A DNA stretch of 64,000 nt from Candidatus Thalassarchaeaceae archaeon (GTDB lineage: Archaea > Thermoplasmatota > Poseidoniia > Poseidoniales > Thalassarchaeaceae): contig CALSZZ010000001.1 in assembly GCA_943841885.1 (NCBI GenBank), positions 62,001 through 126,000 of the forward strand, given 5' to 3'. Under the pieces are notes generated by a model. It worked only from the letters and a program-made list of their open reading frames with translations. It was not told the origin of the DNA and made no database searches. Each line of letters starts with the position of its first letter. Position 1 is the first letter of the stretch. Of the stretch, positions 48,870 to 62,421 are shown piece by piece. The position numbers were made by a program, and so were the translations under genes.

Positions 48870-50009
48870 TCAATCAAATCTTTGAAAGTCACTTTCTGAC
48901 CTGTTTCTAGCCTTTTTTGCGATATTTAAGGCTTCACCTAGCATATCCGCATCTAACATCTCATTATTCAATCTTTCACTGATTACTCCAGTAATAATCG
49001 ACATTACTTTTATTGTATCTCCAAATGCTGGATCTTGTCTAGCCCCGAAAATTACCGTTGCATTTGGAGAAAGCCTGGCAGTCATTAATTCAACTACTTG
49101 ATTGGCTTGCTCTAGTGTCATATATGGCCCTCCAGTTACGTGAATCAACGCGCCTGTCGCTCCATCAATTTCTATGTCCAATAGGGGATGATTAAGTGAC
49201 TCATGAACTACTTCTTCTGGACCTCTATCACTTTCGCCGTATAGCATCATAGTGACTCCTCCACCTTTCATTATTGTTCTAACATCAGCAAAATCTAGAT
49301 TAATTAAGCTGGGAAGAGTAATTGTCTCTACAACTCCTTTTACTATTTCTGCAATTAATTGATCCATTATGCTGAAAGCTTCTTCCATTGGAAGATTAGG
49401 AACATAATGTAATAGTCTATTATTATCTAAAACGAGCACAGCATCAGCAGTTTCTCGTACCATATTTAGCCCTTCCAAAGCACGTTTCATTCTCATTTTA
49501 CGTTCCACAGAAAACGGAGTAGTAACTACAGCCACTACTAATGCACCGGCTTTCTTTGCTTCTTCAGCAACTATAGGTGCAATGCCAGTTCCTGTACCTC
49601 CGCCAAGACCTGCTGTGACAAATACCAAATCTGCTCCTGCTACAATATTGCCGATCACATCTCTTCCAGCTTCAGCACATCTTCTTCCCATTGCAGGATC
49701 TCCTCCTGCTCCAAGGCCTCTTGTTATGTGTCTTCCAACTAGTAATTTCTGCATGGCACGTGTATTATCGAGATGTTGCTTATCCGTATTTATGGCTACA
49801 GTAATGGCCCCTTCAACTCCAATATGAGTTATCCGATTCATCGTATTATTGCCTGAACCTCCACAGCCACAAACTAATATTCTAGGATCAGCAGGTCCAT
49901 AATCTTCTAATTCTCTATCTGTTAGTGCTGTAGGTATCCTTTTAGGGGGTATTTGATGACTTTCTCGGTCAATAGACCTCATAGGCGCCTCTACCATATT
50001 TCTCCCCAT
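48870..50009 (-). CDS. ftsZ: cell-division GTPase FtsZ
   Basis: 379 residues. The tubulin/FtsZ signature GLGGGTGTG is near 136-145. Upstream VCGCGGSGNNTMNR is the nucleotide loop T1, and LVLDNNRL and NLDFADVRTIM are further conserved elements, the latter carrying the T7-loop region. It polymerises at mid-cell with GTP. N-terminal ~40 residues are an extension before the GTPase domain. It is followed by the PGF-CTERM-like protein gene on the same strand. Confidence 0.95.
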   Translation of the reverse strand: MGRNMVEAPMRSIDRESHQIPPKRIPTALTDRELEDYGPADPRILVCGCGGSGNNTMNRITHIGVEGAITVAINTDKQHLDNTRAMQKLLVGRHITRGLGAGGDPAMGRRCAEAGRDVIGNIVAGADLVFVTAGLGGGTGTGIAPIVAEEAKKAGALVVAVVTTPFSVERKMRMKRALEGLNMVRETADAVLVLDNNRLLHYVPNLPMEEAFSIMDQLIAEIVKGVVETITLPSLINLDFADVRTIMKGGGVTMMLYGESDRGPEEVVHESLNHPLLDIEIDGATGALIHVTGGPYMTLEQANQVVELMTARLSPNATVIFGARQDPAFGDTIKVMSIITGVISERLNNEMLDADMLGEALNIAKKARNRSESDFQRFD

Positions 50010-50219: not shown

Positions 50220-50330
50220 CCGAGCTTAGCTCAGTTGGCTAGAGCACCTGACTGTAGACTGGAAATAACAACTTCGGTTGTTGGCCAAATGGCCATCAGG
50301 GGGTCCCCGGTTCAAGTCCGGGAGCTCGGA
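50220..50330 (+). tRNA. tRNA-Tyr (GTA) with a 37-nt intron; boundary of the genomic island
   Basis: Acceptor stem CCGAGCT/AGCTCGG (C1-G72, as in archaeal tRNA-Tyr), D-stem GCTC/GAGC, anticodon stem CCTGA/TCAGG with loop C-T-G-T-A-G-A giving anticodon GTA (50254-50256), T-arm CCCGG/CCGGG, discriminator A, and encoded CCA at 50331-50333. An intron lies after position 37 (50258-50294, 37 nt), consistent with archaeal bulge-helix-bulge splicing. The 3' half overlaps the end of a tyrosine-recombinase gene on the other strand, so this is an integration target. Confidence 0.93.
50258..50294 (+). other. tRNA-Tyr intron
   Basis: 37 nucleotides, beginning actggaaata and ending ggcc, inserted one base 3' of the anticodon. 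Removing it restores a normal seven-base anticodon loop and a five-pair stem. Its centre forms a hairpin with a TTCG loop (acaac-ttcg-gttgt). Confidence 0.85.
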
Positions 50331-51579
50331 CCACCATGTCATCATCTTCATCCCAACAGGAGGGATAGATGCCTCCTCCTTTACCGTCAGAGAAGTATCC
50401 AATGTCGTATAATTGACTGTATAAATCATCGATTTTTCTATCTGTATTTCCACGTATCTGTAAGAGAGCCTCAAGTTCTTTCATACCTGCCCCCCATGCT
50501 TCCTGCCTCATTCTTTCCTTATGTTTTGAAGCGAAGTAGTACTTTGTAGTCACTTTGGGAGAGGAGTGGCCTAAGAATACAGACATCTGCTCCACCGAGG
50601 CGCCCCCCTTGCCCATCCAATCGCACCAAACTGTTCTCAGGTCGTGGAGCCTGTAGTATCCACCAGCGCTCGTCGGCTCCATCCCGATATTCTTCATCGC
50701 ACCCTTTTTTATTTCTTGAAGAGTCTTCGGGTTGATCGTCCCCCTCCCTCTCTTGTTCTCGTCCTCGCTGAATAAGAATACGGCATCCGGGTGGTTCTCT
50801 CTGCAGTATTCTAGGTAGGGCTCGACCCTCTCGAACGCCCACTCGGGCATGTTGTTGCGAACCTCCTCCGAGTACGTCCTCATCTTGCTTATTTCTCTAA
50901 TAAAGTGGTCCTCACTCACGTCTGATATCTTGATTCGCCTAATCGAGTCGGCCCTTCCAGCGCTCACGAGTGTCAGCCATATGTACGCTCTGAGAGCCAG
51001 TAGAAGGTGATGACTCGTGCGTTCGGGCCCCGCGTTCGAGGAGTTCTCGTTCGCGATTCTCGAAAGGTTCGGGGCTTCCTCCGGGTTCTCGCACATCTCG
51101 TCCAGGGACCCAATCAGGTCGACAATCTCTTTATCCTCGATACCTCTATGTTCCGCTTTCCTCTTCTTCATCCCCTTCTTGATGATGGTAACTTGAGTTT
51201 TGACTTCCTCAACTATTCGGGTATTTACTTCTCCGTATATCATCACCTTGCCAGTCAGGTAACCAAGATACCCGTCCAGCGTCGATTGCGCTAGATCGGA
51301 ACTCTCAATCTCAGTCTGTAATGACTCGATGAACTCGCTGTACTGTAGGTCGTCCCTCAAGTCGTCGGGAGTGAAGCTACCTAGGGTATACCTGAACTTC
51401 CTAGCGGATATCCTAATGTTCTTGTAGCGCTTCAGATTTCTGTCCTTCCATCTTCTAGGGCTTCTGAGCCAGATCATCACATTATCGTAAATCGAAGGTT
51501 CTCCTTGGTCCATCCCGTCGGAGACCCAGTATGGGTATTCATCTTGGCTGGCTGTATTACATGGCTGTATCTCTGGCAT
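50296..51579 (-). CDS. tyrosine recombinase (integrase) at tRNA-Tyr
   Basis: 427 residues from ATG 51579 (MPEIQPCNTA); ATG 51711 is an upstream alternative. An N-terminal SAM-like DNA-binding domain (TPDDLRDDLQYSEFIESL ... TLDGYLGYLTG) precedes the catalytic domain. Active-site residues visible are Arg in SAGRADSIRRIK, His-x-x-Arg in LHDLRTVWCDW, and Tyr in HSSPKVTTKYYF. The last codons (RAPGLEPGTP) are antisense to the tRNA-Tyr T-arm, so the gene end was fixed by insertion there. GC is clearly higher than in core genes. It belongs to an integrated element lying to the right of the tRNA. Confidence 0.88.
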   Translation of the reverse strand: MPEIQPCNTASQDEYPYWVSDGMDQGEPSIYDNVMIWLRSPRRWKDRNLKRYKNIRISARKFRYTLGSFTPDDLRDDLQYSEFIESLQTEIESSDLAQSTLDGYLGYLTGKVMIYGEVNTRIVEEVKTQVTIIKKGMKKRKAEHRGIEDKEIVDLIGSLDEMCENPEEAPNLSRIANENSSNAGPERTSHHLLLALRAYIWLTLVSAGRADSIRRIKISDVSEDHFIREISKMRTYSEEVRNNMPEWAFERVEPYLEYCRENHPDAVFLFSEDENKRGRGTINPKTLQEIKKGAMKNIGMEPTSAGGYYRLHDLRTVWCDWMGKGGASVEQMSVFLGHSSPKVTTKYYFASKHKERMRQEAWGAGMKELEALLQIRGNTDRKIDDLYSQLYDIGYFSDGKGGGIYPSCWDEDDDMVVRAPGLEPGTP

Positions 51580-51738
51580 GGAATATAGGAAGCGAAGACG
51601 AAGGTATGAAAGGTTATGGCTAGTACTATGATGCAGAGTTTGAACATGAATACCTATTGCTTCAAACGACAATGTCGTTGGGGATCTCATATCTCCAAGG
51701 AATGACTTCAATAGCCTCCGATTTCAGAGTATAACTCC

Positions 51739-51930
51739 ATGACTGAAAATACATGTGAGCATGAGTGGGACGATAGCCAAGAGATAGACACTTTCCTAGA
51801 CATAGTGGATTTCAAAACCGAGTTTGTCCAGATCAGAGTAAGGTGTTGCAAATGTGGAATTATAGGATTAACCTCAGCTGAACTTGAATGGAGTTCAGTA
51901 TTTTGGGATGCAATATTGCTGCAGGAGTAA
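51739..51930 (+). CDS. 63-residue zinc-ribbon-like peptide in the island
   Basis: ATG 51739. C-x-H-x-W (CEHEW) near residue 5 and C-C-x-C-G near 36-40 are the likely metal ligands. The rest is acidic and hydrophobic. It is divergent from the first integrase and precedes the GIY-YIG gene. It could be an element-encoded regulator. No family assigned. Confidence 0.5.
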   Translation: MTENTCEHEWDDSQEIDTFLDIVDFKTEFVQIRVRCCKCGIIGLTSAELEWSSVFWDAILLQE

Positions 51931-52028
51931 TCGGAAGGAAAAGGACCTTCATGTATACATAAATCATGGGTCTATTTACAAAATATTTCATTAATATATT
52001 AAATAGCCAACCCCATTCTTACATTCAT

Positions 52029-53174
52029 ATGGTCACCATCTATGTGTTGAGATTGGTTGATAATAAATTCTATGTTGGTATGACAACAAGAAATTTGGCT
52101 AGGATTTGGGAGCATGTAGAAGGAGAGGGTGCTAAATGGACAAAGAAGTATCCTCCGATAAAAGGAAATGAAGTCAAGTGGTTGGATGACAGATTATTTC
52201 CATTGGATGAAAATAGAATTACTTTAGAAATGATGAGAGATTATGGTATCGAAAATGTCAGAGGAGGTAGTTGGTGTCAAATGAAACTCACCTCAAGACA
52301 AATATATGGTGTAAAGAAAAGAATAAGGGAATTACCACCTAAAAAATCAAAATCGAGACCTGAGGTTGGAGAATATTACAAAAAAAGAGCACTGAAGAAA
52401 AAATATTCCAGAAAGAAGAGGGCTAAAAATAAGTTAAGAGGAGTTTTGTTACCATTTGGCACAGAACCAATCAATCAATGCAGGGCAATGAAGATGAATG
52501 GAGCAGGAAGATGTCGAAAACCAACCAAATCTAATTTTGCAGGAAATTCTTCAAATGATCAATTATGTAATATGCACAGGATTTCGGTGCTAAGTGGAAG
52601 AAGGCCTTGGCCTACTGTAGATTCAGAAGGAAGAAGAGTTACGAAGCAGATGGCAAAGGAAAATAACCTAAGTAAGATTAGAGGTGATGATTCGACAGAG
52701 AAAAAGATGTCAAAAAAGGAGTTTGACAATCTGAATAAAAAGGTTGGATTTACAAGCGATAAAATAGATCCTAAGGGAAATAAATTAGAGGCCATTGAAA
52801 TTGAAAAATTGAAGATAGAAATAATAAGAATGAAAACTGAAAATAGAGAAAAAATAAGGAATATCAGAAAACTAGCAAAAAAAGAAATAGAGGATATTTC
52901 CGAATTGAAAGACATAGATATAACACTATTAGAATTAGAAAACGAAGTTTTAGAGGAAGAAAAATTTGAATTGAAGAATGAGGTTGATTTGCTAAAATCT
53001 CTGTCTCTAGAATATCATATCTCAAAAGAGGTATCAAAGGCCGTTAAAAGGGTAAAAAGGAATGTTAAAAAAACCAAAAAAGGAGTTGCAAAAGAAGTAA
53101 AAAAAGAGGTAAAAAAATCAATTAAAGTTGCTAAGAAGGCAGGTAAAAAGTTGAGGAAGAAAACCGGTCTGTGA
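52029..53174 (+). CDS. GIY-YIG endonuclease-domain protein with zinc-finger and histone-H1-like basic tail
   Basis: 381 residues from ATG 52029 (MVTIYVLRLVDNKFYVG). Residues 3-45 form a GIY-YIG module: YVL ... FYVGMTTRNLARIWEHVEG with the catalytic Arg and Glu region, then GAKWTKKYPP. MMRDYGIENVRGGSW near 71-85 resembles GIY-YIG proteins of large DNA viruses and protists (from memory). A basic linker, a C-x10-C-x17-C-x2-H cluster (~145-180), a Lys/Glu coiled coil (~235-335) and a Lys/Ala/Val-rich tail of repeated KK motifs (VKKTKKGVAKEVKKEVKKS) follow. It likely cuts or binds DNA. A selfish or defence role is inferred. Confidence 0.7.
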   Translation: MVTIYVLRLVDNKFYVGMTTRNLARIWEHVEGEGAKWTKKYPPIKGNEVKWLDDRLFPLDENRITLEMMRDYGIENVRGGSWCQMKLTSRQIYGVKKRIRELPPKKSKSRPEVGEYYKKRALKKKYSRKKRAKNKLRGVLLPFGTEPINQCRAMKMNGAGRCRKPTKSNFAGNSSNDQLCNMHRISVLSGRRPWPTVDSEGRRVTKQMAKENNLSKIRGDDSTEKKMSKKEFDNLNKKVGFTSDKIDPKGNKLEAIEIEKLKIEIIRMKTENREKIRNIRKLAKKEIEDISELKDIDITLLELENEVLEEEKFELKNEVDLLKSLSLEYHISKEVSKAVKRVKRNVKKTKKGVAKEVKKEVKKSIKVAKKAGKKLRKKTGL

Positions 53175-53222
53175 TATTTTTTTAGACCTTATCATTATCA
53201 AATATAGTAATACGGATCAAAG

Positions 53223-53232
53223 GGGTATACCC
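53223..53232. repeat. perfect 10-bp palindrome upstream of the 53304 gene
   Basis: gggtataccc reads the same on both strands. It lies in the leader region before a membrane-protein gene and could be an operator. Too short to exclude chance. Confidence 0.35.
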
Positions 53233-53303
53233 GTCTGTACAGTGGGGCCGTTTGTATTACTTTCACCACATCAGTTAAATTGTTCAAATGATAGGGGTGA
53301 AAT

Positions 53304-53978
53304 ATGCTTCAAATGGCCATTCTTATCTTTCACATTTTTGCAGGTTCTATCGCATTATGTACTGCGGCTGGTGCTTTCATGACCAAGAAAGGAAGGGCTT
53401 GGCACGCTCGCATCGGGAAAATATATTCTTTCGCAATGATGATGGTGGCATTATCATCATTTATGTTAGTGGTTTTAGGTGCGCCATTTTTTTTATTGAT
53501 GATTGGAATATTTTCCGGATATATTGTCGCAGTAGGCTGGAGAAGAGCAGTAAATAGAAAGGGTGAAGTTGTCAAAATCGACCGCATTTTAATAGCGATT
53601 GGGATTATTGGAGCGCTAGGGTTATTTGTAACGAGCGCAGTAATCTTTTCAGGTAGCAATTTGATAAAATCAAATGGCGAAGGCCGTATATTTGGAATTG
53701 TGCCGCTGGTCTTTGCGGGAATCTGTGGGGGACTTGTTTGGGTTCAGACTCGTGTTGATGAAAAAGGATTAGCGCCCCGAGAAAAACTTCGGATCACACA
53801 GCATGTCATATTCATGGGCTCTGGAACAATTGCAACTGTTACCGCATTCCTTCTTACTGCAGTATCAAACAGTGTGTTTCTTTGGATAATTCCTACGATT
53901 GTTGGTACCGCTGGAATAATATTCTGGACCATGAAAGTTAACGCTGGAAAAATCACCCCTCTAAAAAGCGAGCAATAA
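53304..53978 (+). CDS. island membrane protein, DUF2306-like
   Basis: 224 residues with six to seven hydrophobic helices. N-terminal LIFHIFAGSIALCTAAGAF, KKGRAWHARIGKIYSFAMMM and the later RITQHVIFMGSGTIATVTAF hold His residues in helices, as in DUF2306/heme-binding-type membrane proteins. Preceded by ggggtg, a plausible ribosome binding site. The family call is from the pattern HxxxG...HxxxGxxY and is tentative. Cargo of the island. Confidence 0.6.
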   Translation: MLQMAILIFHIFAGSIALCTAAGAFMTKKGRAWHARIGKIYSFAMMMVALSSFMLVVLGAPFFLLMIGIFSGYIVAVGWRRAVNRKGEVVKIDRILIAIGIIGALGLFVTSAVIFSGSNLIKSNGEGRIFGIVPLVFAGICGGLVWVQTRVDEKGLAPREKLRITQHVIFMGSGTIATVTAFLLTAVSNSVFLWIIPTIVGTAGIIFWTMKVNAGKITPLKSEQ

Positions 53979-54000
53979 AAACATAGCACCGTCTACTCGT

Positions 54001-54056
54001 TTTCGGATAGATACAAAGGGTTCAGCTGAAACCCCTTTGAATTTTATTTTCCGAAA
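54001..54056. repeat. nested inverted repeat after the membrane-protein gene
   Basis: Outer arms tttcgg (54001-54006) / ccgaaa (54051-54056), inner arms caaaggg (54014-54020) / ccctttg (54033-54039), and the perfect palindrome ttcagctgaa (54021-54030) at the centre. Possibly a terminator, protein-binding site or recombination site. Confidence 0.5.
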
Positions 54057-54070
54057 CAAAGAGGATTCAA

Positions 54071-54089
54071 TGGGTCGAATCACTCGCTA
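54071..54089 (+). repeat. 19-bp direct repeat, left flank of the giant island gene
   Basis: tgggtcgaatcactcgcta; the near-identical tgggtcgaatcattcgcta lies at 58505-58523, one mismatch. The pair brackets the high-GC gene and may mark the ends of a mobile cassette or a past duplication. Confidence 0.55.
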
Positions 54090-54091
54090 CC

Positions 54092-54154
54092 CTCTGACGC
54101 GCATACGCTTCAGAGCCCCACTACAGAACCCTCTGATCTCTATGCCGGTCAGAG
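54092..54154 (+). repeat. two tandem 24-nt hairpins with the same stem
   Basis: ctctga ... tcagag occurs at 54092-54115 and again at 54131-54154, each with a 12-nt loop. They sit just upstream of the GTG start of the giant gene, so may act in its leader or as recombination sites. Confidence 0.5.
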
Positions 54155-54201
54155 CGGCTGAGTAGGTCAAGTCAATAAACCAATAATCCGTGGGCTAGCA
54201 C

Positions 54202-57200
54202 GTGAAGATTAACCGGGGTAGTAAGGGAATAAGGACGGAGTCGAACGTCGTGGGGGCCATTGCCTTGGCCTTCCTGATGGTAGCCATGGCCCAGGTCGGG
54301 TACGCAGGGGGGGATCAGCGGGACTCCCTCGATGCCGAGCGAGCCGGCCACACCGGGACGATCACCTCGAATGTCGAGGGCGCGGAGCTGCAACTCGGCG
54401 AGGCGATGACGCCGATCACGCTCAACACGCCACAACCTGCCTCGTGGAGTACCGAACCCGCTCTGCCTGCCGGCCTGAGCATCTCGAGAGGCACCATCAG
54501 CGGCACGCCCTCGGTCTACGCCAGCAACCAGACCTACACGATACATGCGGAGCAGGGAGGAGAGGCAACCACCTTCGAGATCTACCTCAGCGTGGGCTCG
54601 GACAACCCGCACACCGTGGTGGAGAATCAGCCGATCGATGCGATCGGCTTCCACGACCCCTTCCAGGATGGGACCACGACCTGGGCCGTATCACCGTCCC
54701 TGCCGTCCGACCTCACGATGGACCCGGCCACGGGGGAGATCACGGGGTCCGTCGAGGGAGAGCTACCCAACACCACCTACACAATGACCGCGACGGAGGT
54801 CATCCCGACCTCGTCATCCGCCTATGCGAACAACAAGGTGTCTGCCGGATGGTACCACAACTGCGCCATCCTCGACGACGGCGACCTGAAGTGCTGGGGG
54901 CGGGACAACCACGGACAGTTGGGCGATGGTGGAAGCAACACCAACACCAACGCTCCCTCATCCACAGCGATCGACCTCGGTTCGGGCCGAACGGCCATTG
55001 CTGTGTCAGCTGGAGATTATCACACCTGTGCCATCCTCGACAACGGCGATGCGAAGTGCTGGGGGAAGGACAGCCATGGACAGTTGGGCGATGGCGGAAG
55101 CAACACTGACACCACCGCACCCTCATCCACAGCGATCGACCTCGGCACGGGCCGAACGGCCGTTGCGGTGTCTGCTGGAAGTCGCCACACCTGCGCCATC
55201 CTCGACAACGGCGATGCGAAGTGCTGGGGGCAGGACAGCTATGGACAGTTGGGCGATGGCGGAAGCAACACGGACACCAACGCACCCTCATCCACAGCGA
55301 TCGACCTCGGCACGGGCCGAACGGCCGTTGCGGTGTCTGCCGGATGGTCCGACACCTGCGCCATCCTCGACAACGGCGACCTGAAGTGCTGGGGGCGGGA
55401 CAACTTCGGACAGTTGGGCGACGGTGGAAGCAACACGGACACCGACGCACCCTCATCCACAGCGATCGACCTCGGTTCGGGCCGAACGGCCATTGCTGTG
55501 TCAGCTGGAGATTATCACACCTGTGCCATCCTCGACAACGGCGATGCGAAGTGCTGGGGGAAGGACAGCCATGGACAGTTGGGCGATGGTGGAAGCAACA
55601 CGGACACCAACGCACCCTCATCCACAGCGATCGACCTCGGCACGGGCCGAACGGCCGTTGCGGTGTCGGCTGGATGGTACCACAACTGCGCCATCCTCGA
55701 CAACGGCGATGCGAAGTGCTGGGGGCAGGACAGCTATGGACAGTTGGGCGATGGCGGAAGCAACACTGACACCACCGCACCCTCATCCACAGCGATCGAC
55801 CTCGGCACGGGCCGAACGACCGTTGCGATGTCAGCCAGAGGTGACCACGCCTGCGCCATCCTCGACGACGGCGACCTGAAGTGCTGGGGGCAGGACAGCT
55901 ATGGACAGTTGGGCGATGGTGGGACCAACACCGACCAAGGTTCACCCGTTTCGGTTTCCGGCAGCAACACCTGGGATTCCTCGACCGGGCCGAGCAGCGG
56001 TTCAGGCAGCGGAGCTTCGAGTTCCCCGTCCTCCGAGGACATCCACTTCAGACTGGTCAGCCTCGCTGACTCGGACGGGGACGGCCTTCCGGACGAGCTG
56101 CCAGGCGACTACGACCCGATGGAGGGCCCGACCCCCGGACTCGTCGCAGACGATGACGACGACAACGACGGCCTCCCGGACCTGGAGGAGAGTGCCACGG
56201 GCACAGACTCCACCAACCCGGACACGGACGGCGACGGATACTGTGACGGGCCGACAGCGGTCGCAGGCGTCTGCCAGACTGGCCCGGACGCCTTCCCCCT
56301 CGACCCTGCGGAGTGGCTGGACACCGACGGCGACGGGATCGGCAACGAGGCCGACACGGACGACGACAACGACGGCCTCCCGGACCTGGAGGAGAGTGCC
56401 ACGGGCACAGACTCCACCAACACGGACACGGACGGCGACGGGTACTGCGACGGCGCGGAGGCCGTGACCGGCGTCTGCGAGGCAGGCCCCGACGCCTTCC
56501 CGACCGACCCGTCCGCCCACGCGGACACCGACGGCGACGGCATGCCGGACACGATCACCGGGACCTCCACATCCGTCCCGGCCCTCGTCGAGGACACGGA
56601 CGACGACGGCGACGGGCTCGAGGACGCGAGCGAGACCGATACCGGGACATACGTCGATGGCTCGGACACGGGAACGGACCCACTGAACCCCGACACCGAC
56701 TCGGACGGGATCTGCGACGGTCCCAACGCCGTCCCGCCGATATGCCTGGCAGGACCGGACGACGACCCTCACGGGTCGAACTTCGGCGGAAGCTTCTACG
56801 GATTGAGGAACTCACAGACAGACGAATTCCAACCGGCCGGTATAGCAGCACCCGGAACGACCTACGAGGTGTATCCCGGACTCCCAACGGAGATGACTCT
56901 GGATACAGCAACCGGTACGATCAGCGGAACGCCGACAGAGCAGATGGGGAACACGACGTTCAACCTCTGGGCGAACCAGACAGACGGGACTTCAGTCAGG
57001 ACGACCTTCCTGTTCGAGGTCTTGGAAGACACCGACGGCGACGGGATGCCCGACGTGCTGCCTGACTACTATGATTCCACGACAGGGGCATTCGTCGAGG
57101 ACGATGACGACGACGACGACGGCATCACGGACGCCGACGAGAGGGAAGCGGGCACCGATCCGCTGGACCCAGACACTGACGGCGACGGGGTATGCGACGG

Positions 57201-58473
57201 GCCGGTGTCACCGGCGAACAGCGATTGCACTGTAATAACTGATGATGAGAATGATGGCGGTGATGGAGGATCTAGTAACATGTGGTGCTTCTGCTGCCTG
57301 ATTTTCCTTCTACTGCTACTATTGGCACTGTTGATCGGACGTGACAAAGTAATGGGCATAGTACTAGTTGGCCCTGAGCCAGAGAACACGTCATCAGAAC
57401 CTCAGTTTATCGATGGTACGGGCACCAAGGAAGATCCGTTCGTCCTTGCTACTGCTGAAGGAGTGAAACCTGGTGAATCGGTAATTAGCAAAGAAACAAT
57501 CACGATCAACAACATGTCGAAGATTAATGTGGATATGATCGACTTTAACCAGGAAACAAACAGCAATCGCTTCGGAATGCGTGAGAAGAATAACAATAAA
57601 TCCGCTACAAGAGTTATCGCCGTTAACGATAATGGAGAGATTATGATCAATATGGTTTTTGATGATAACACTGATGGTCCGACTTACGAAGGAGGAGAAT
57701 TCATTGGGTTACTAAAGCTCGGACGAGCAAGTGTATATATTTCTTGGACGGTCAATGTAAAACCCGATAAGAAAAAACTTAAGGAGATACAGAAGCAAAG
57801 AGAAGCTGACGAAAAGGCCGCTAAGTTGGCCAATGAGGAAGCCACTGCCATTGCTCTGCTTGCTAAGGAAGAACAAGAGAAAGCTGCCAAGAAGGCCGAA
57901 GACGAGGCTGCAGCCGCGACCTTGCTCGCCAAGGAAGAGGAAGAGAAGGCCGCCGAGAAGGCAGCCGCATCCAAATCCTCCAGCAACGAGGAGAAGAAGC
58001 TAGAGGAGTTACAAAGAGTGAGGGAGCGAGCGAGCTCCATCAATTTCGAGACCCTAGGCAAGGCATCTTCTACGGAGCTGAAGAGCGCCGTCGAAGAGGG
58101 CGCTGATACCTTAGAGGTCGCGAGTACATCCGACTTCGCCGACAGCGGCTCCGCGAGAATCAGCGACTCCGCTGGCACATCGGTCATCACCTGGACTGGG
58201 AAGAACAGAAACGTACTGACCGGCGTCTCGGGAGTGACCAGAACATTCGCCGCCGCCTCGATAGTCCTAGTCAAGGACGACCTGCAGGTGATAAAGGGCA
58301 TCGGACCGTTCCTGGAGGAGAAGCTTAACGCCCTCGGAATCTACACGTTCTTGCAGATTAGCAAGATGACGCCTGAGATAGAGGAGGAAGTCAACGTAGC
58401 CATCGAATTCTTCCCCGGTCGCGTCAAGAGGGACGAGTGGGCCAAGCAGGCTGGCGAGCTTCTTCGGGATTGA
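54202..58473 (+). CDS. giant surface protein: Ig-like, seven RCC1 repeats, thrombospondin-3 repeats, membrane helix, cytoplasmic coiled coil and HhH
   Basis: 1423 residues, GTG start. A signal-peptide-like N terminus (residues ~14-35) precedes two He_PIG/Ig-like domains (~40-205; LPAGLSISRGTISGTP). Seven 55-residue RCC1 units (~214-590; C-A-I-L-D-x-G-D-x-K-C-W-G, GQLGDGG) predict one seven-bladed propeller. Asp-rich TSP3 calcium repeats (DTDGDGxxD) and another Ig-like unit fill ~610-1010. A membrane helix is near 1028-1048 (CFCCLIFLLLLLLALLI). The inside half has a beta domain, an Ala/Glu/Lys coiled coil (~1190-1275) and a C-terminal helix-hairpin-helix (VIKGIGPFLEEKLNALGIYT, ~1363). Most of it is far higher in GC than the chromosome. 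Confidence 0.88.
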   Translation: MKINRGSKGIRTESNVVGAIALAFLMVAMAQVGYAGGDQRDSLDAERAGHTGTITSNVEGAELQLGEAMTPITLNTPQPASWSTEPALPAGLSISRGTISGTPSVYASNQTYTIHAEQGGEATTFEIYLSVGSDNPHTVVENQPIDAIGFHDPFQDGTTTWAVSPSLPSDLTMDPATGEITGSVEGELPNTTYTMTATEVIPTSSSAYANNKVSAGWYHNCAILDDGDLKCWGRDNHGQLGDGGSNTNTNAPSSTAIDLGSGRTAIAVSAGDYHTCAILDNGDAKCWGKDSHGQLGDGGSNTDTTAPSSTAIDLGTGRTAVAVSAGSRHTCAILDNGDAKCWGQDSYGQLGDGGSNTDTNAPSSTAIDLGTGRTAVAVSAGWSDTCAILDNGDLKCWGRDNFGQLGDGGSNTDTDAPSSTAIDLGSGRTAIAVSAGDYHTCAILDNGDAKCWGKDSHGQLGDGGSNTDTNAPSSTAIDLGTGRTAVAVSAGWYHNCAILDNGDAKCWGQDSYGQLGDGGSNTDTTAPSSTAIDLGTGRTTVAMSARGDHACAILDDGDLKCWGQDSYGQLGDGGTNTDQGSPVSVSGSNTWDSSTGPSSGSGSGASSSPSSEDIHFRLVSLADSDGDGLPDELPGDYDPMEGPTPGLVADDDDDNDGLPDLEESATGTDSTNPDTDGDGYCDGPTAVAGVCQTGPDAFPLDPAEWLDTDGDGIGNEADTDDDNDGLPDLEESATGTDSTNTDTDGDGYCDGAEAVTGVCEAGPDAFPTDPSAHADTDGDGMPDTITGTSTSVPALVEDTDDDGDGLEDASETDTGTYVDGSDTGTDPLNPDTDSDGICDGPNAVPPICLAGPDDDPHGSNFGGSFYGLRNSQTDEFQPAGIAAPGTTYEVYPGLPTEMTLDTATGTISGTPTEQMGNTTFNLWANQTDGTSVRTTFLFEVLEDTDGDGMPDVLPDYYDSTTGAFVEDDDDDDDGITDADEREAGTDPLDPDTDGDGVCDGPVSPANSDCTVITDDENDGGDGGSSNMWCFCCLIFLLLLLLALLIGRDKVMGIVLVGPEPENTSSEPQFIDGTGTKEDPFVLATAEGVKPGESVISKETITINNMSKINVDMIDFNQETNSNRFGMREKNNNKSATRVIAVNDNGEIMINMVFDDNTDGPTYEGGEFIGLLKLGRASVYISWTVNVKPDKKKLKEIQKQREADEKAAKLANEEATAIALLAKEEQEKAAKKAEDEAAAATLLAKEEEEKAAEKAAASKSSSNEEKKLEELQRVRERASSINFETLGKASSTELKSAVEEGADTLEVASTSDFADSGSARISDSAGTSVITWTGKNRNVLTGVSGVTRTFAAASIVLVKDDLQVIKGIGPFLEEKLNALGIYTFLQISKMTPEIEEEVNVAIEFFPGRVKRDEWAKQAGELLRD
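54841..55960 (+). repeat. seven 165-bp RCC1 DNA repeats
   Basis: The 55-codon unit recurs seven times. Units 2 and 5, and 1 and 6, share their variable residues (DYHT and WYHN). Blocks 495 bp (three units) apart, for example around 54975 and 55470, are nearly identical, indicating internal duplication or gene conversion. Confidence 0.88.
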
Positions 58474-58504
58474 GAGATCTAGAGATTCCTCGGACGGCTA
58501 GCAG

Positions 58505-58523
58505 TGGGTCGAATCATTCGCTA
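58505..58523 (+). repeat. 19-bp direct repeat, right flank of the giant island gene
   Basis: tgggtcgaatcattcgcta, partner of 54071-54089. Here it runs into the 14-bp palindrome at 58516-58529. Confidence 0.55.
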
Positions 58524-58638
58524 GCGAATTCTAAAACTATAGCGCCCCCCTTTGCTTATTTGGAATAATTAATGGGCTACAGTATCAACCCCAATGGTTC
58601 GGAGTTTACCATAGTAACCGATGTACTGCAATACAGCG

Positions 58639-58668
58639 GATTCGCTACCCTATGCTTCAGGGTGAATC
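58639..58668. repeat. inverted repeat resembling the left-flank sequence
   Basis: gattc-gct-accct / agggt-gaatc arms around atgcttc. The stretch tcgctaccct plus a gcttcag element also occurs at 54083-54113, so left and right flanks share a second sequence element. Confidence 0.45.
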
Positions 58669-58793
58669 ATAGGATTATCAATCAGCTAAGTGTGACAAAT
58701 ATTTTTTATAAAAATCAATAATTGTGGCCGTTTTTATAAAGTCTGCTGGCGGGCTACGAAAATGTTCAAATGACAATCTAAATATTACATATC

Positions 58794-59972
58794 ATGGCAG
58801 GTAAACAACTTTACTTCGATATCGAATTAAACGATGACTGGAAACGAGGTTGCGATGCAGCAATCAAAGTAGGAAGACTTCGAAACCATAGGAAAGGGAC
58901 AACTGAACGAAATGACAAGAAACTCCCTCTTTATTTTTCGTGTGATCTTATGGAACAAGGTGTTATGCGTCCTGAAGACATAACTGAGGATGATTGGTTG
59001 AATCTAATTGAAAGATATAGGCACGGACAAACTAGATCTGGAAAAATCCTGAAAGAGAGTTCAATAAAGAAGCGCAGAGAAGGATTAATACAAATTTTGA
59101 AGGGCTTACATTTGAATGACATTTTACATTTTGTGAATCTCTGGCAACCAAAAAAGGAAGAAGATATCATTCGTTGGTGGTCTAACGAAGAGATGGAAGC
59201 AATGACCCAAACGGCACTAAAATATATCTCTGAAGGAAAATATGACGAGCGGGCAATTGCTCACCTTCTACATTTTTCAATCGCGCCAAGGAGATCTGAT
59301 TCGGCGTTATTCCTCTGGAAAAACATCGATTTAGTAGAAGGGATGATTACATTCCCTGCTTCTAAAAACAGAAAAAGATGTCAAAATCGTATCGAGCCTC
59401 GATTTATTGAGTTCCTTTCCAATTATAAAAAATTGATTTCAACTTCAAAGGGAGGAGATATATACGTTTTCCCATCTTCACGAGCACAAAAATCTGGAAC
59501 TACAAAAGATCCAAAAGATTACATTTCAGCCAAAACTATTGCGGAATGGCTCGCTTTCATACGAGATTCAACTACATTGCGTAATGGGGACAAAATTAGA
59601 CCATATCCACCTCACTCGTATAGGCATTCTTTAGCGATGAGATATCTCAATACTGGCTCAAGATATGAAGATGTTAGTGGAATTTTAGGCGATACTGTGG
59701 CGACAATTGAAAGATACTATTCAACTCTAATTTATACCCAAGCCAGTGAGGAAGCATTTCGTAGAGCACATCCTAATTCACACAAGGAGCCTGCGATTGC
59801 TACATCTCAACCGGAATGGATGATGCGAGAAGTTAGCCTTCAGACGTATAATATCAATTCTTCCGCAGTACTTCGAAACAGGGGTTCGGACTCTACGAGG
59901 GTGGTGGACGCTGGGGGATTTGAACCCCCGGCCACCTGGTTGCAAACCAGGTGCTCTTCCAAGCTGAGCTAA
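58794..59972 (+). CDS. tyrosine recombinase (integrase) at tRNA-Ala
   Basis: 392 residues. Catalytic residues: Arg in APRRSDSALF near 166, His-x-x-Arg in PHSYRHSLAMRYL near 276, and the nucleophile Tyr in TIERYYSTL near 303. An N-terminal core-binding domain covers ~1-120. It is unrelated in detail to the integrase at 50296. The last ~22 codons (AGGFEPPATWLQTRCSSKLS) are antisense tRNA-Ala, showing insertion at the tRNA 3' half. The upstream region shares motifs with that of the 53304 gene. Confidence 0.87.
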   Translation: MAGKQLYFDIELNDDWKRGCDAAIKVGRLRNHRKGTTERNDKKLPLYFSCDLMEQGVMRPEDITEDDWLNLIERYRHGQTRSGKILKESSIKKRREGLIQILKGLHLNDILHFVNLWQPKKEEDIIRWWSNEEMEAMTQTALKYISEGKYDERAIAHLLHFSIAPRRSDSALFLWKNIDLVEGMITFPASKNRKRCQNRIEPRFIEFLSNYKKLISTSKGGDIYVFPSSRAQKSGTTKDPKDYISAKTIAEWLAFIRDSTTLRNGDKIRPYPPHSYRHSLAMRYLNTGSRYEDVSGILGDTVATIERYYSTLIYTQASEEAFRRAHPNSHKEPAIATSQPEWMMREVSLQTYNINSSAVLRNRGSDSTRVVDAGGFEPPATWLQTRCSSKLS

Positions 59973-59978
59973 GCGCCC
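59905..59978 (-). tRNA. tRNA-Ala (TGC); right boundary of the island
   Basis: On the minus strand: acceptor GGGCGCT/AGCGTCC with the G3-U70 pair that identifies alanine, D-stem GCTC/GAGC, anticodon stem CCTGG/CCAGG with loop TTTGCAA (anticodon TGC), T-arm GGGGG/CCCCC, discriminator A, and CCA encoded at 59902-59904. No intron. The second integrase gene overlaps it antisense. Confidence 0.95.
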
Positions 59979-60033: not shown

Positions 60034-60633
60034 TTATTCATTTGATTTAATTAATTGGGGAACAATCAATAAGATTCCAATAATCGAGAAGATTAACAAT
60101 ACAAAAATCAAAGTTCGGTTTGAATCATCATTTTCTTCTATTGGTTCATTTCCAGTCGGGAGATTTTCATCCATATCATGAATATCGGGGCCAAAATTTA
60201 CAAAGAAATCAAATTCAGTTATATTTTCCCCAATTTTTATTTGGTGTTTAATTGAAATGTTGCCTTGGAGGAACCCATTACTTGCTGATAAATTGATTAT
60301 CATGTGCGCATTACAATTTTCATCTATTTTTTCACCTGTTTCATTCAGTTCACAAGAAGAATTTAACCATCCTGTAGCATAATCATCGACTCCTGTGAAA
60401 ATATCATTTCCATCTAAATCTATAACAAATCTATGACTAACATTTTCACGAGTATCGTGATTTCTAACGAATAAGGAGTCGTTCTCAACTAGTATTCCAG
60501 GAACTACTCCTTCAGGAGTTGGCCCATCTTCAAAGAGAAGAATAGTGTAATTCTGAGGATCATGAGCCTGTACATTTGCAGGTATTGAGATCATAATTAT
60601 GACCAGTAAAAAAGACAGTAACGGCCCCTTCAT
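60034..60633 (-). CDS. secreted/membrane-anchored protein, function unknown
   Basis: 199 residues. The signal peptide is MKGPLLSFLLVIIMISIPAN-VQA, the exposed part is Asn/Asp-rich with many N-x-S/T sites, Cys at two positions, and FVIDLDGNDIF. A C-terminal helix TLIFVLLIFSIIGILLIVPQ anchors it. It begins MKGP just 24 bases from the divergent LVIVD gene. No domain recognised; a small metal-binding surface protein is possible (HDMDEN). Confidence 0.6.
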   Translation of the reverse strand: MKGPLLSFLLVIIMISIPANVQAHDPQNYTILLFEDGPTPEGVVPGILVENDSLFVRNHDTRENVSHRFVIDLDGNDIFTGVDDYATGWLNSSCELNETGEKIDENCNAHMIINLSASNGFLQGNISIKHQIKIGENITEFDFFVNFGPDIHDMDENLPTGNEPIEENDDSNRTLIFVLLIFSIIGILLIVPQLIKSNE

Positions 60634-60663
60634 ATTAGTTCGTAGAGGAGCGATGGTTTGAAC

Positions 60664-62421
60664 ATGTCTCGCTTACTCGCAAGTATAATGGAGATAAGGC
60701 GTATACTTCTTGCAACTGGACTAGTTGCATGTTTAATTGTTGCAAGTACAAGTATGTTCTTATTAGCACGTGAAGATCAAGAATCTGAAAGTTCCAAAGT
60801 TATGTTGTTAGACCCTTTATTACAAGATGATGGTCATGACCATAGGAATGCTAGCCAACATGTAATGTATACTGAAAATATTCAACCAATTTCATTCAAT
60901 TCTCTAACAGCTCCTGGAAATGCAGAAGTACAAGTTGCAGAATCTCCAGATGGAAACACCTATGCATATATCGCTGGTTGGAGTGAGATGCATATTGTAG
61001 ATGTAACAAATCCATACAATACTACAGTGATGGGAGTTTATATTGATCCTAATACTCAAGTTTTAGATGTCAAATATTTACAATATGATGGTAGAGAATA
61101 CGTCATAGTACAGAACCAATTAGTAGATCCCGGTAATGCCGATCCAAATGTAGGAGAATGGGGCGATCCGGCTCAAGTTACGGTAACATTAGTGGATGTC
61201 ACAGATAAAGAAAATCCTACATTTGTAGATGCTTGGTATGATGCAGATCATCCAAGTGGCCCTCACAATCTTTACACGCAAATGATAGATGATGAATGGT
61301 ATATTTTTGTAGCAAACCCAGAATATGAACAATGCGATGTAGGGCAGGGAGATGCGTGTGGAGGAATAACAATTGCACATCTTAATTTTGATGGCCCTAG
61401 TGATAATCCTGTCATACTAAAAGTTGGTGAAGCAGAAGTATCATGGGAAAGCACCCGTGGAGGGTGGATATATATTCATGATATGACAGTCCAAAAATGG
61501 CCAGGAGAAGATACTAATGATCCAAGATTTGGGAAAACATATGTCTATGGGGCCTATTGGGAAGCCGGTTTAAGAATATTCGATGTCAGCGATGTGCCTC
61601 ACCCTCAGAATTCGCCTGTGGAATATGCATTCATAGCAGGAGGTTGTGTTGGGTCATTTGGTACTCAATTAGGTTGTAACTGGAGAGCTCCTGAGGTTGG
61701 TCTTTGGATGGATTTTGAAGACTTTGATGGAGATGGACAACCAGACAGTGGTACGACCGGTAATGAAAATGGAGGAAGATCATCATACATTCATTATGCA
61801 GAACCTGTTGATGAAATGGTTGATGCTAGCCATTTAGGTTATCCGGCAGGAAAAATGCATCTGACCCTTCTATCCACAGAAGTCTTGGATACTACTGTTG
61901 GAACTGGTATGTCTTACTTACTGGACACTACAGAGTACGAATTATACAATGGAAATGTGAGATTTCTTCCAAAATTAGTACATGGATGGGAAATACCATT
62001 TGCTGAAGATCACCACATCCCTGGTGGTGAAGAATGGTTGCTATTTAGCCCACATAATGCAGATATTGAGATATTCCCAACGGGTCAACAAGGATATCCC
62101 GACAATAGTCATGGAGGATCTTGGGATGGTAGAATATATCTCTCAAGTTATCATGCTGGTTTATGGGTCATAGATATTGAAAGTATGATGCTTGCTGGTT
62201 TGGGTGATGCAAATAAAACTGAGGTTCATGCAGAATCAACTATTGGATATCATATATCTCATGCTGAAGATGGAGAACCTTTAGACAGCTCTTATTATGA
62301 CTTTGGATGGACTCCTTTTATTTGGGCTGCAGAATATCATGAAGGTTATACATATCTTTCATGTATTACAACTGGATTATACATTGTTCAGTTAGATATT
62401 GACAGACCATATATCAATTAG
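60664..62421 (+). CDS. secreted LVIVD-repeat beta-propeller protein
   Basis: 585 residues from ATG 60664; TTG 60658 and ATG 60688 are alternatives. A signal/anchor helix is near 12-40. The body has LVIVD-type blades: MHIVDVTNPYNTTVMGVY near 115, VDVTDKENPTFVDAW near 180, RIFDVSDVPHPQNSP near 300, and LWVIDIESMMLAG near 500. His/Asp-rich stretches (HDHRNASQH; HHIPGGEEW) may bind metal. An extracytoplasmic propeller of unknown ligand is inferred. It is followed 46 bases on by a paralogue. Confidence 0.75.
   Translation: MSRLLASIMEIRRILLATGLVACLIVASTSMFLLAREDQESESSKVMLLDPLLQDDGHDHRNASQHVMYTENIQPISFNSLTAPGNAEVQVAESPDGNTYAYIAGWSEMHIVDVTNPYNTTVMGVYIDPNTQVLDVKYLQYDGREYVIVQNQLVDPGNADPNVGEWGDPAQVTVTLVDVTDKENPTFVDAWYDADHPSGPHNLYTQMIDDEWYIFVANPEYEQCDVGQGDACGGITIAHLNFDGPSDNPVILKVGEAEVSWESTRGGWIYIHDMTVQKWPGEDTNDPRFGKTYVYGAYWEAGLRIFDVSDVPHPQNSPVEYAFIAGGCVGSFGTQLGCNWRAPEVGLWMDFEDFDGDGQPDSGTTGNENGGRSSYIHYAEPVDEMVDASHLGYPAGKMHLTLLSTEVLDTTVGTGMSYLLDTTEYELYNGNVRFLPKLVHGWEIPFAEDHHIPGGEEWLLFSPHNADIEIFPTGQQGYPDNSHGGSWDGRIYLSSYHAGLWVIDIESMMLAGLGDANKTEVHAESTIGYHISHAEDGEPLDSSYYDFGWTPFIWAAEYHEGYTYLSCITTGLYIVQLDIDRPYIN

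Follow-up and report, generated by a model that had tools for sequence, protein, structure and literature searches.

How two tRNA genes, each carrying its own integrase, came to stand face to face is the question raised by a stretch of 64,000 nucleotides from a Candidatus Thalassarchaeaceae archaeon. This stretch, the window, corresponds to C1:62001-126000 of the genome G000, and positions given below without a contig name refer to it. The genome is a draft of 1.49 Mb in six contigs, 80% complete, in which contig C1 measures 533 kb. In the window tRNA-Tyr and tRNA-Ala lie tail to tail with 9.6 kb between them, and the island that they enclose encodes two tyrosine recombinases, int1 at tRNA-Tyr and int2 at tRNA-Ala. 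We found that two types of element meet in this island, that in related genomes the two tRNA genes belong to separate loci, and that the attachment (att) site at the far end of the Tyr element is located on another contig, C6. Both elements are of the ordinary, known tRNA-targeting kind; the unusual point is the junction of one half to the other. Concerning its origin, the explanation that we favour, at roughly even odds (about 0.5), is a real rearrangement by recombination between two integrated elements.

Attachment sites of the Tyr element on two contigs

tRNA-Tyr (50220..50330, + strand; Rfam RF00005, 55.6 bits) contains an intron, and ARAGORN in bacterial mode mis-frames it. The gene is kept beside ftsZ in the genus, and ftsZ itself (48870..50009, - strand), which forms the core left flank of the site, is present in 59 of 59 relatives. 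The left element uses the tRNA-Tyr 3' end for its attachment, and the core of the left site (attL), CGGTTCAAGTCCGGGAGCTCGGACCAC, covers 27 bp (50308..50334, + strand). A search of the contigs of G000 found this 3' end again at C6:5217-5243, exact over 27 bp and with no tRNA gene there; this copy is the right site, attR. In a genome of 1.5 Mb, chance is no explanation for an exact match of 27 bp. A preliminary description of the locus had seen no second copy of either tRNA 3' end within the window, which we confirm, and the copy of tRNA-Tyr is found instead on C6.

The gene for ribosomal protein L15e is placed 475 bp beyond the att copy on C6, and the far flank of this copy exactly matches the flank of the empty site in relatives. 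In six congeners L15e stands directly beside tRNA-Tyr and ftsZ. Empty sites, which the preliminary description had proposed to look for, do exist in relatives: the empty Tyr site of the near-identical G009 aligns without gaps over 3 kb to the left arm on C1 followed by the right arm on C6 (95.7% and 94.7% identity, respectively, over 1,500 bp each), and 119 of 120 bp match across the junction. Therefore the two ends of one insertion are found on two contigs, C1 and C6, and the earlier opinion that the island is not a simple single insertion was correct, since two element types are involved and the Tyr ends are divided between these contigs.

Complete Tyr elements found elsewhere have the order attL, int1, cargo, a 252-aa gene and attR. 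In G100 (the single-cell genome Candidatus Poseidoniales AG-319-P11, among the close relatives of G000, which is thus a Marine Group II archaeon) tRNA-Tyr is followed by int1 (83% identity), cargo, a 265-aa gene, an att copy, 3.8 kb, a further att copy and L15e, so that the site holds an 8-kb element and a second one in tandem. In G084 the order is int1 (87%), a small zinc-ribbon-like open reading frame (ORF), an endonuclease-like gene, a C5-methyltransferase and, at the contig end, the 252/265-aa gene. In blastn and tblastx comparisons the island of G000 shares with these elements int1 and the small ORF, to ~51914, and C6 shares with them the 252-aa gene and the attR end. The small ORF (51740..51931, + strand) is the last stretch recognisably common to other Tyr elements, the individual matches reaching 51835-51914. 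Because both portions belong to complete elements in G084 and G100, the int1 of C1 and the 252-aa gene of C6 represent opposite ends of one element type, and the Tyr element of G000 is split between C1 (int1) and C6 (252-aa gene and attR).

Two further observations were made at the same site. The tandem insertion of G100 includes three att copies (L127, G100:C2, 8017-19847), and the second of its distal ends matches the C6 end with 96% identity over 156 bp, even though the two hosts are of different genera. Moreover, a 34-bp piece of the region upstream of int1 (window 51686-51718) recurs on C6 (L004, 943-976), accompanied neither by the zinc ORF nor by further int1 sequence, and is perhaps the remnant of a second, tandem Tyr element.

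The two integrases are int1 (50296..51711, - strand; PF00589 Phage_integrase, 5.6e-12), whose true start is probably at ~51580 (MPEIQPC...), and int2 (58794..59972, + strand; PF00589 Phage_integrase, 1.8e-7), the recombinase of the Ala element, encoded by an ORF passing through tRNA-Ala. Both reading frames are complete and retain the R, H-x-x-R and Y positions of tyrosine recombinases; identity between the two is only 22%, and they are unrelated recombinases, each reading into its own tRNA. The antisense overlap of both tRNA genes by recombinases, as first described, is real, but its extent can be refined: int1 overlaps only 35 nt of tRNA-Tyr, and the frame of int2 covers 71 of the 77 nt of tRNA-Ala, more than the 3' half. 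In the relatives of int1 and of int2 the C-terminus reads the same tRNA in a different frame, and the overlap is therefore incidental. Besides the elements of G084 and G100, an int1 relative is present at tRNA-Tyr in G019 (82%), and int2 has relatives at tRNA-Ala in G002 (identical), G029 (93%) and G084 (50%). Viral contigs gave no relative for int1, int2 or the GIY-YIG protein of the island, and the phage collection none for int1 or int2. Other relatives of int1 (~42%) are located at tRNA-Gln(CTG) (L129, G019:C10, 12466-13665; L135, G009:C12, 6-194), and this integrase family has therefore switched tRNA targets.

The Ala element and the two loci in relatives

tRNA-Ala(TGC) (59902..59978, - strand), identified by tRNA searches with ARAGORN and Rfam, is placed family-wide, in what is the ancestral order, between a 199-aa gene with an LVIVD gene (60034..62421, the core right flank of the site) and a TFB gene. 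The attL of the Ala element is formed by the 3' end of this tRNA gene, the point at which the element DNA of G002 is joined as well. G002, a congener of another species, carries int2 and the DNA upstream of it at its own tRNA-Ala with 0 differences over 1,285 bp (58653-59937), whereas its core flank at this site is only ~81% identical to that of G000. Given this disparity, the Ala module has been recently mobile. The stretch identical with G002 stops inside the tRNA, at the start of an anticodon stem specific to G002, and left of 58653 there are two differences in 25 bp, which is a significant change (p = 3.5e-4). In G084 the relative of int2 adjoins a type I restriction specificity gene, and in G135 a decayed Ala element is reduced to attL, a 14-bp copy of attR and then TFB. 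A virus-like island was also observed beside tRNA-Ala in G033 (G033:C35, L131, 2741-15162), with two integrases, an NTPase and several small membrane proteins.

In relatives, ftsZ/tRNA-Tyr/L15e and LVIVD/tRNA-Ala/TFB are two separate loci, and in the relatives examined the two tRNA genes are on different contigs. The gene order of the window, free of integrases and common to all relatives, which the preliminary description had taken into consideration, was not seen. Beyond tRNA-Tyr, on the L15e side, no Ala locus is found in 88 kb (G003) or 66 kb (G027), and the distance between the loci on this side exceeds these values; an abutment produced by insertion into neighbouring tRNA genes is thus contradicted. 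The related proposal of two abutting elements that had lost their distal att sites was right as to the two elements, one for each tRNA, but not as to the loss, since the distal site of the Tyr element persists on C6 by L15e, its ancestral neighbour. The search for vacant sites was successful also for tRNA-Ala, as the Ala site of G027 is uninterrupted.

With the contigs ordered after G008, the Tyr site continues on its L15e side into C6 and from there into C2, and the Ala site on its TFB side into C5. From this order it follows that C1 connects the ftsZ half of the Tyr locus with the LVIVD half of the Ala locus, and that the connection is made by two element ends, one carrying int1 and the other int2. 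As L15e is still present on C6, the sites cannot have been brought together by a simple deletion of what lay between them. The contig order was also examined for a choice between inversion and fission; in relatives, the sequence to the right of C2 extends over at least 50 kb and matches no G000 contig end compared. In the closed genome G036, which belongs to another family, the local order is different.

Two candidates for the original state of the Ala site were rejected. G009 was discarded as an empty Ala site, its neighbour being a CDP-alcohol phosphatidyltransferase gene, which replaces the family-wide TFB after tRNA-Ala (L075, G009:C21, 1354-1835). The CDP gene was also discarded as the ancestral neighbour, its homologue in G002 and G008 following a NUDIX-like gene without tRNA-Ala or an att copy. 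The neighbour seen in G009 may have come as cargo to this site or by a further rearrangement.

Rearrangement, misjoin or composite element

According to the explanation that we favour, int1 would have put one element at the 3' end of tRNA-Tyr and int2 another at the 3' end of tRNA-Ala, at distant loci. Later recombination within both elements would have fused the Tyr element, at its int1 end, with the int2 end of the Ala element, making neighbours of the two tRNA genes and their core flanks. The exchange point may be near a dispersed 137-bp repeat with inverted ends GGGTAGCGAAT...ATTCGCTACCC (58522..58658, + strand), which looks like a small mobile repeat and has other copies in the contigs of the same genome, near contig ends (C1:526414-526550, C4:257965-258101 and C6:595-716). 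The predicted reciprocal product would be C5-TFB-attR(Ala)-rest of both elements-attR(Tyr)-L15e-C6, and its right part would be C6:1-5246. Two points are inferred here, the reality of the join, as opposed to an error of assembly, and its origin by recombination between elements; the rearrangement as a whole has in our estimate about one chance in two.

Some results weigh against this rearrangement. The reciprocal junction, from the right end of C5 to the left end of C6, is not assembled and its ends fall in gaps, so that the event is seen from one side. The scan for tRNA-end copies outside the window, fruitful for tRNA-Tyr, gave no second copy of the tRNA-Ala 3' end in G000 at up to three mismatches in 24 bp, in an assembly that is 80% complete and has the TFB side unassembled; G000 lacks both the specific TFB and the attR that belongs to the Ala element. 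No long identical sequence common to both elements was found for homologous recombination, the candidate copies of the 137-bp repeat being 87-90% identical with at most 36 bp shared exactly.

The same arrangement could come from an assembly misjoin, the chief competing explanation, which we regard as possible although not as probable. The real Tyr element would then run to L15e and the Ala element to TFB, either in one genome or in different strains, and the misjoin would have been made across cargo or repeat sequence that both elements contain, with C6-left and C5-right remaining as dangling ends. Such an error would agree with the incomplete state of the draft and with the position of the left end of C6 and the right ends of C1 and C4, all in island DNA with copies of the 137-bp repeat. 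The change in provenance relative to G002 falls inside this same repeat, and the contigs of relatives break at the same two sites, in G002 inside the repeat and in G009, G006 and G003 just after tRNA-Ala. However, the 36 bp that the repeat copies share exactly at most are short for usual k-mer sizes, C1 is a long contig in an assembly of few contigs, and no duplicate of island-identical cargo was seen in the parts of the genome read. An unlikely alternative, raised already in the preliminary description and the most novel of these readings, is one composite element with two integrases and two attP sites, for tRNA-Tyr and for tRNA-Ala. It would have entered at tRNA-Tyr via int1, after which int2 would have recombined the internal attP(Ala) with the distant tRNA-Ala; the chromosome would have been rearranged, and two pieces would remain, both with a Tyr att site at one end and an Ala att site at the other. 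The observed map agrees with this prediction, having attL(Tyr) and attL(Ala) at the two ends of the C1 piece and attR(Tyr) at the one end, the Tyr end, at which the C6 piece is seen, and there are precedents in the integrative and conjugative element (ICE) ICE3 of Mesorhizobium (PMC5882170) and in the bipartite symbiosis ICEs (symICEs) of Bradyrhizobium (PMC9174649). In every other genome seen, however, int1 and int2 are in separate elements: G084 holds both kinds on separate contigs, with a Tyr element from int1 to the 252-aa gene at tRNA-Tyr, and G002 has int2 alone. The lack of an attR(Ala) in G000 also speaks against a composite element, and no transfer or conjugation genes were recognised among the Pfam-scanned island proteins. 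A single island between tRNA genes that were neighbours from the beginning, with two degenerate integrases left by successive insertions, would account for their tail-to-tail position only 9.6 kb apart but is extremely improbable: the tRNA genes are in different loci with different conserved neighbours in relatives, the Tyr attR is beside L15e on C6, both integrase frames are complete, and the empty-site match across C1 and C6 refutes it.

If the join is real, it represents a recent rearrangement in one Poseidoniales lineage, with its breakpoint inside two tRNA-borne mobile elements; such elements would then be a cause of gene-order change in uncultured archaea, and a specific reciprocal junction is predicted. 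If it is an artefact, it is a warning for metagenome-assembled genomes, whose contigs break at tRNA-element sites and may be wrongly joined. In the improbable event of a composite element, a few kilobases would rearrange the host chromosome of an abundant marine archaeon at each integration or exit. Either way, two families of tRNA-targeting elements, Tyr and Ala, are defined in the family, new for this archaeal group; att sites and empty sites are available for them, as well as complete examples and transfer between species.

Known systems and the cargo of the island

Integrated mobile genetic elements (iMGEs) that target tRNA genes have been described in archaea (Krupovic et al. 2019, PMC6563490), and archaeal tyrosine recombinases have been reviewed (PMC8371274). 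The elements reported here are similar to iMGEs for the tyrosine recombinase beside a tRNA 3' end, the short direct repeat of the tRNA end (27 bp in our case), the use of intron-containing tRNA genes as targets, the tandem insertion at one site (G100) and the variable cargo, including restriction-modification genes. They differ because here the two ends of one element are on different assembled stretches, and elements of two different tRNAs meet with their int ends. An inversion between integrated elements has been documented for TKV2 and TKV3 of Thermococcus kodakarensis (Gehring et al. 2017, as described in PMC8371274). There, as proposed for G000, rearrangement between two integrated elements gave hybrids with ends of different att sites; however, TKV2 and TKV3 are related copies with shared homology, whereas in G000 the integrases are unrelated, the tRNAs differ, no long homology was found and only one of the two junctions is seen.

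Concerning bacteria, the chromosome is inverted when the bipartite symICEs of Bradyrhizobium integrate at a second att site (PMC9174649). Inversions between elements are the presumed origin of the prototype tripartite ICE, and reassembly and excision of Mesorhizobium ICE3 have been shown experimentally (both PMC5882170). In these systems pieces are flanked by att sites of different integrases, as is the C1 piece of the island, and integration at the second site rearranges the chromosome, as it would in G000 with a composite element. They are large and conjugative, whereas the archaeal pieces are small and have no recognised transfer genes. Charybdis elements, integrated in Poseidoniales (preprint, PMC12324425), have the same host order, are small, carry methyltransferases and in some cases stand beside tRNA genes with an integrase; they have a conserved structural module, and no kinship is claimed.

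Between the small ORF and the repeat, the cargo includes a GIY-YIG-like protein (51966..53174, + strand; weak Pfam match PF01541), whose membership in one or the other element is uncertain and whose 30% identical homologue adjoins tRNA-Ala in G086, and a DUF2306-like membrane protein (53304..53978, + strand; weak Pfam match). The 137-bp repeat was also considered as a structured RNA, which was not supported (z = -0.04). The largest cargo gene encodes a 1,423-aa RCC1-repeat/TSP3 surface-type protein recognised with Pfam (54202..58473, + strand). Its first 3.0 kb are GC-rich, with a G+C fraction at third codon positions (GC3) of 0.79 compared with 0.24 in the host ftsZ, the change occurring near 57234, and this gene is likely of foreign or mosaic origin.

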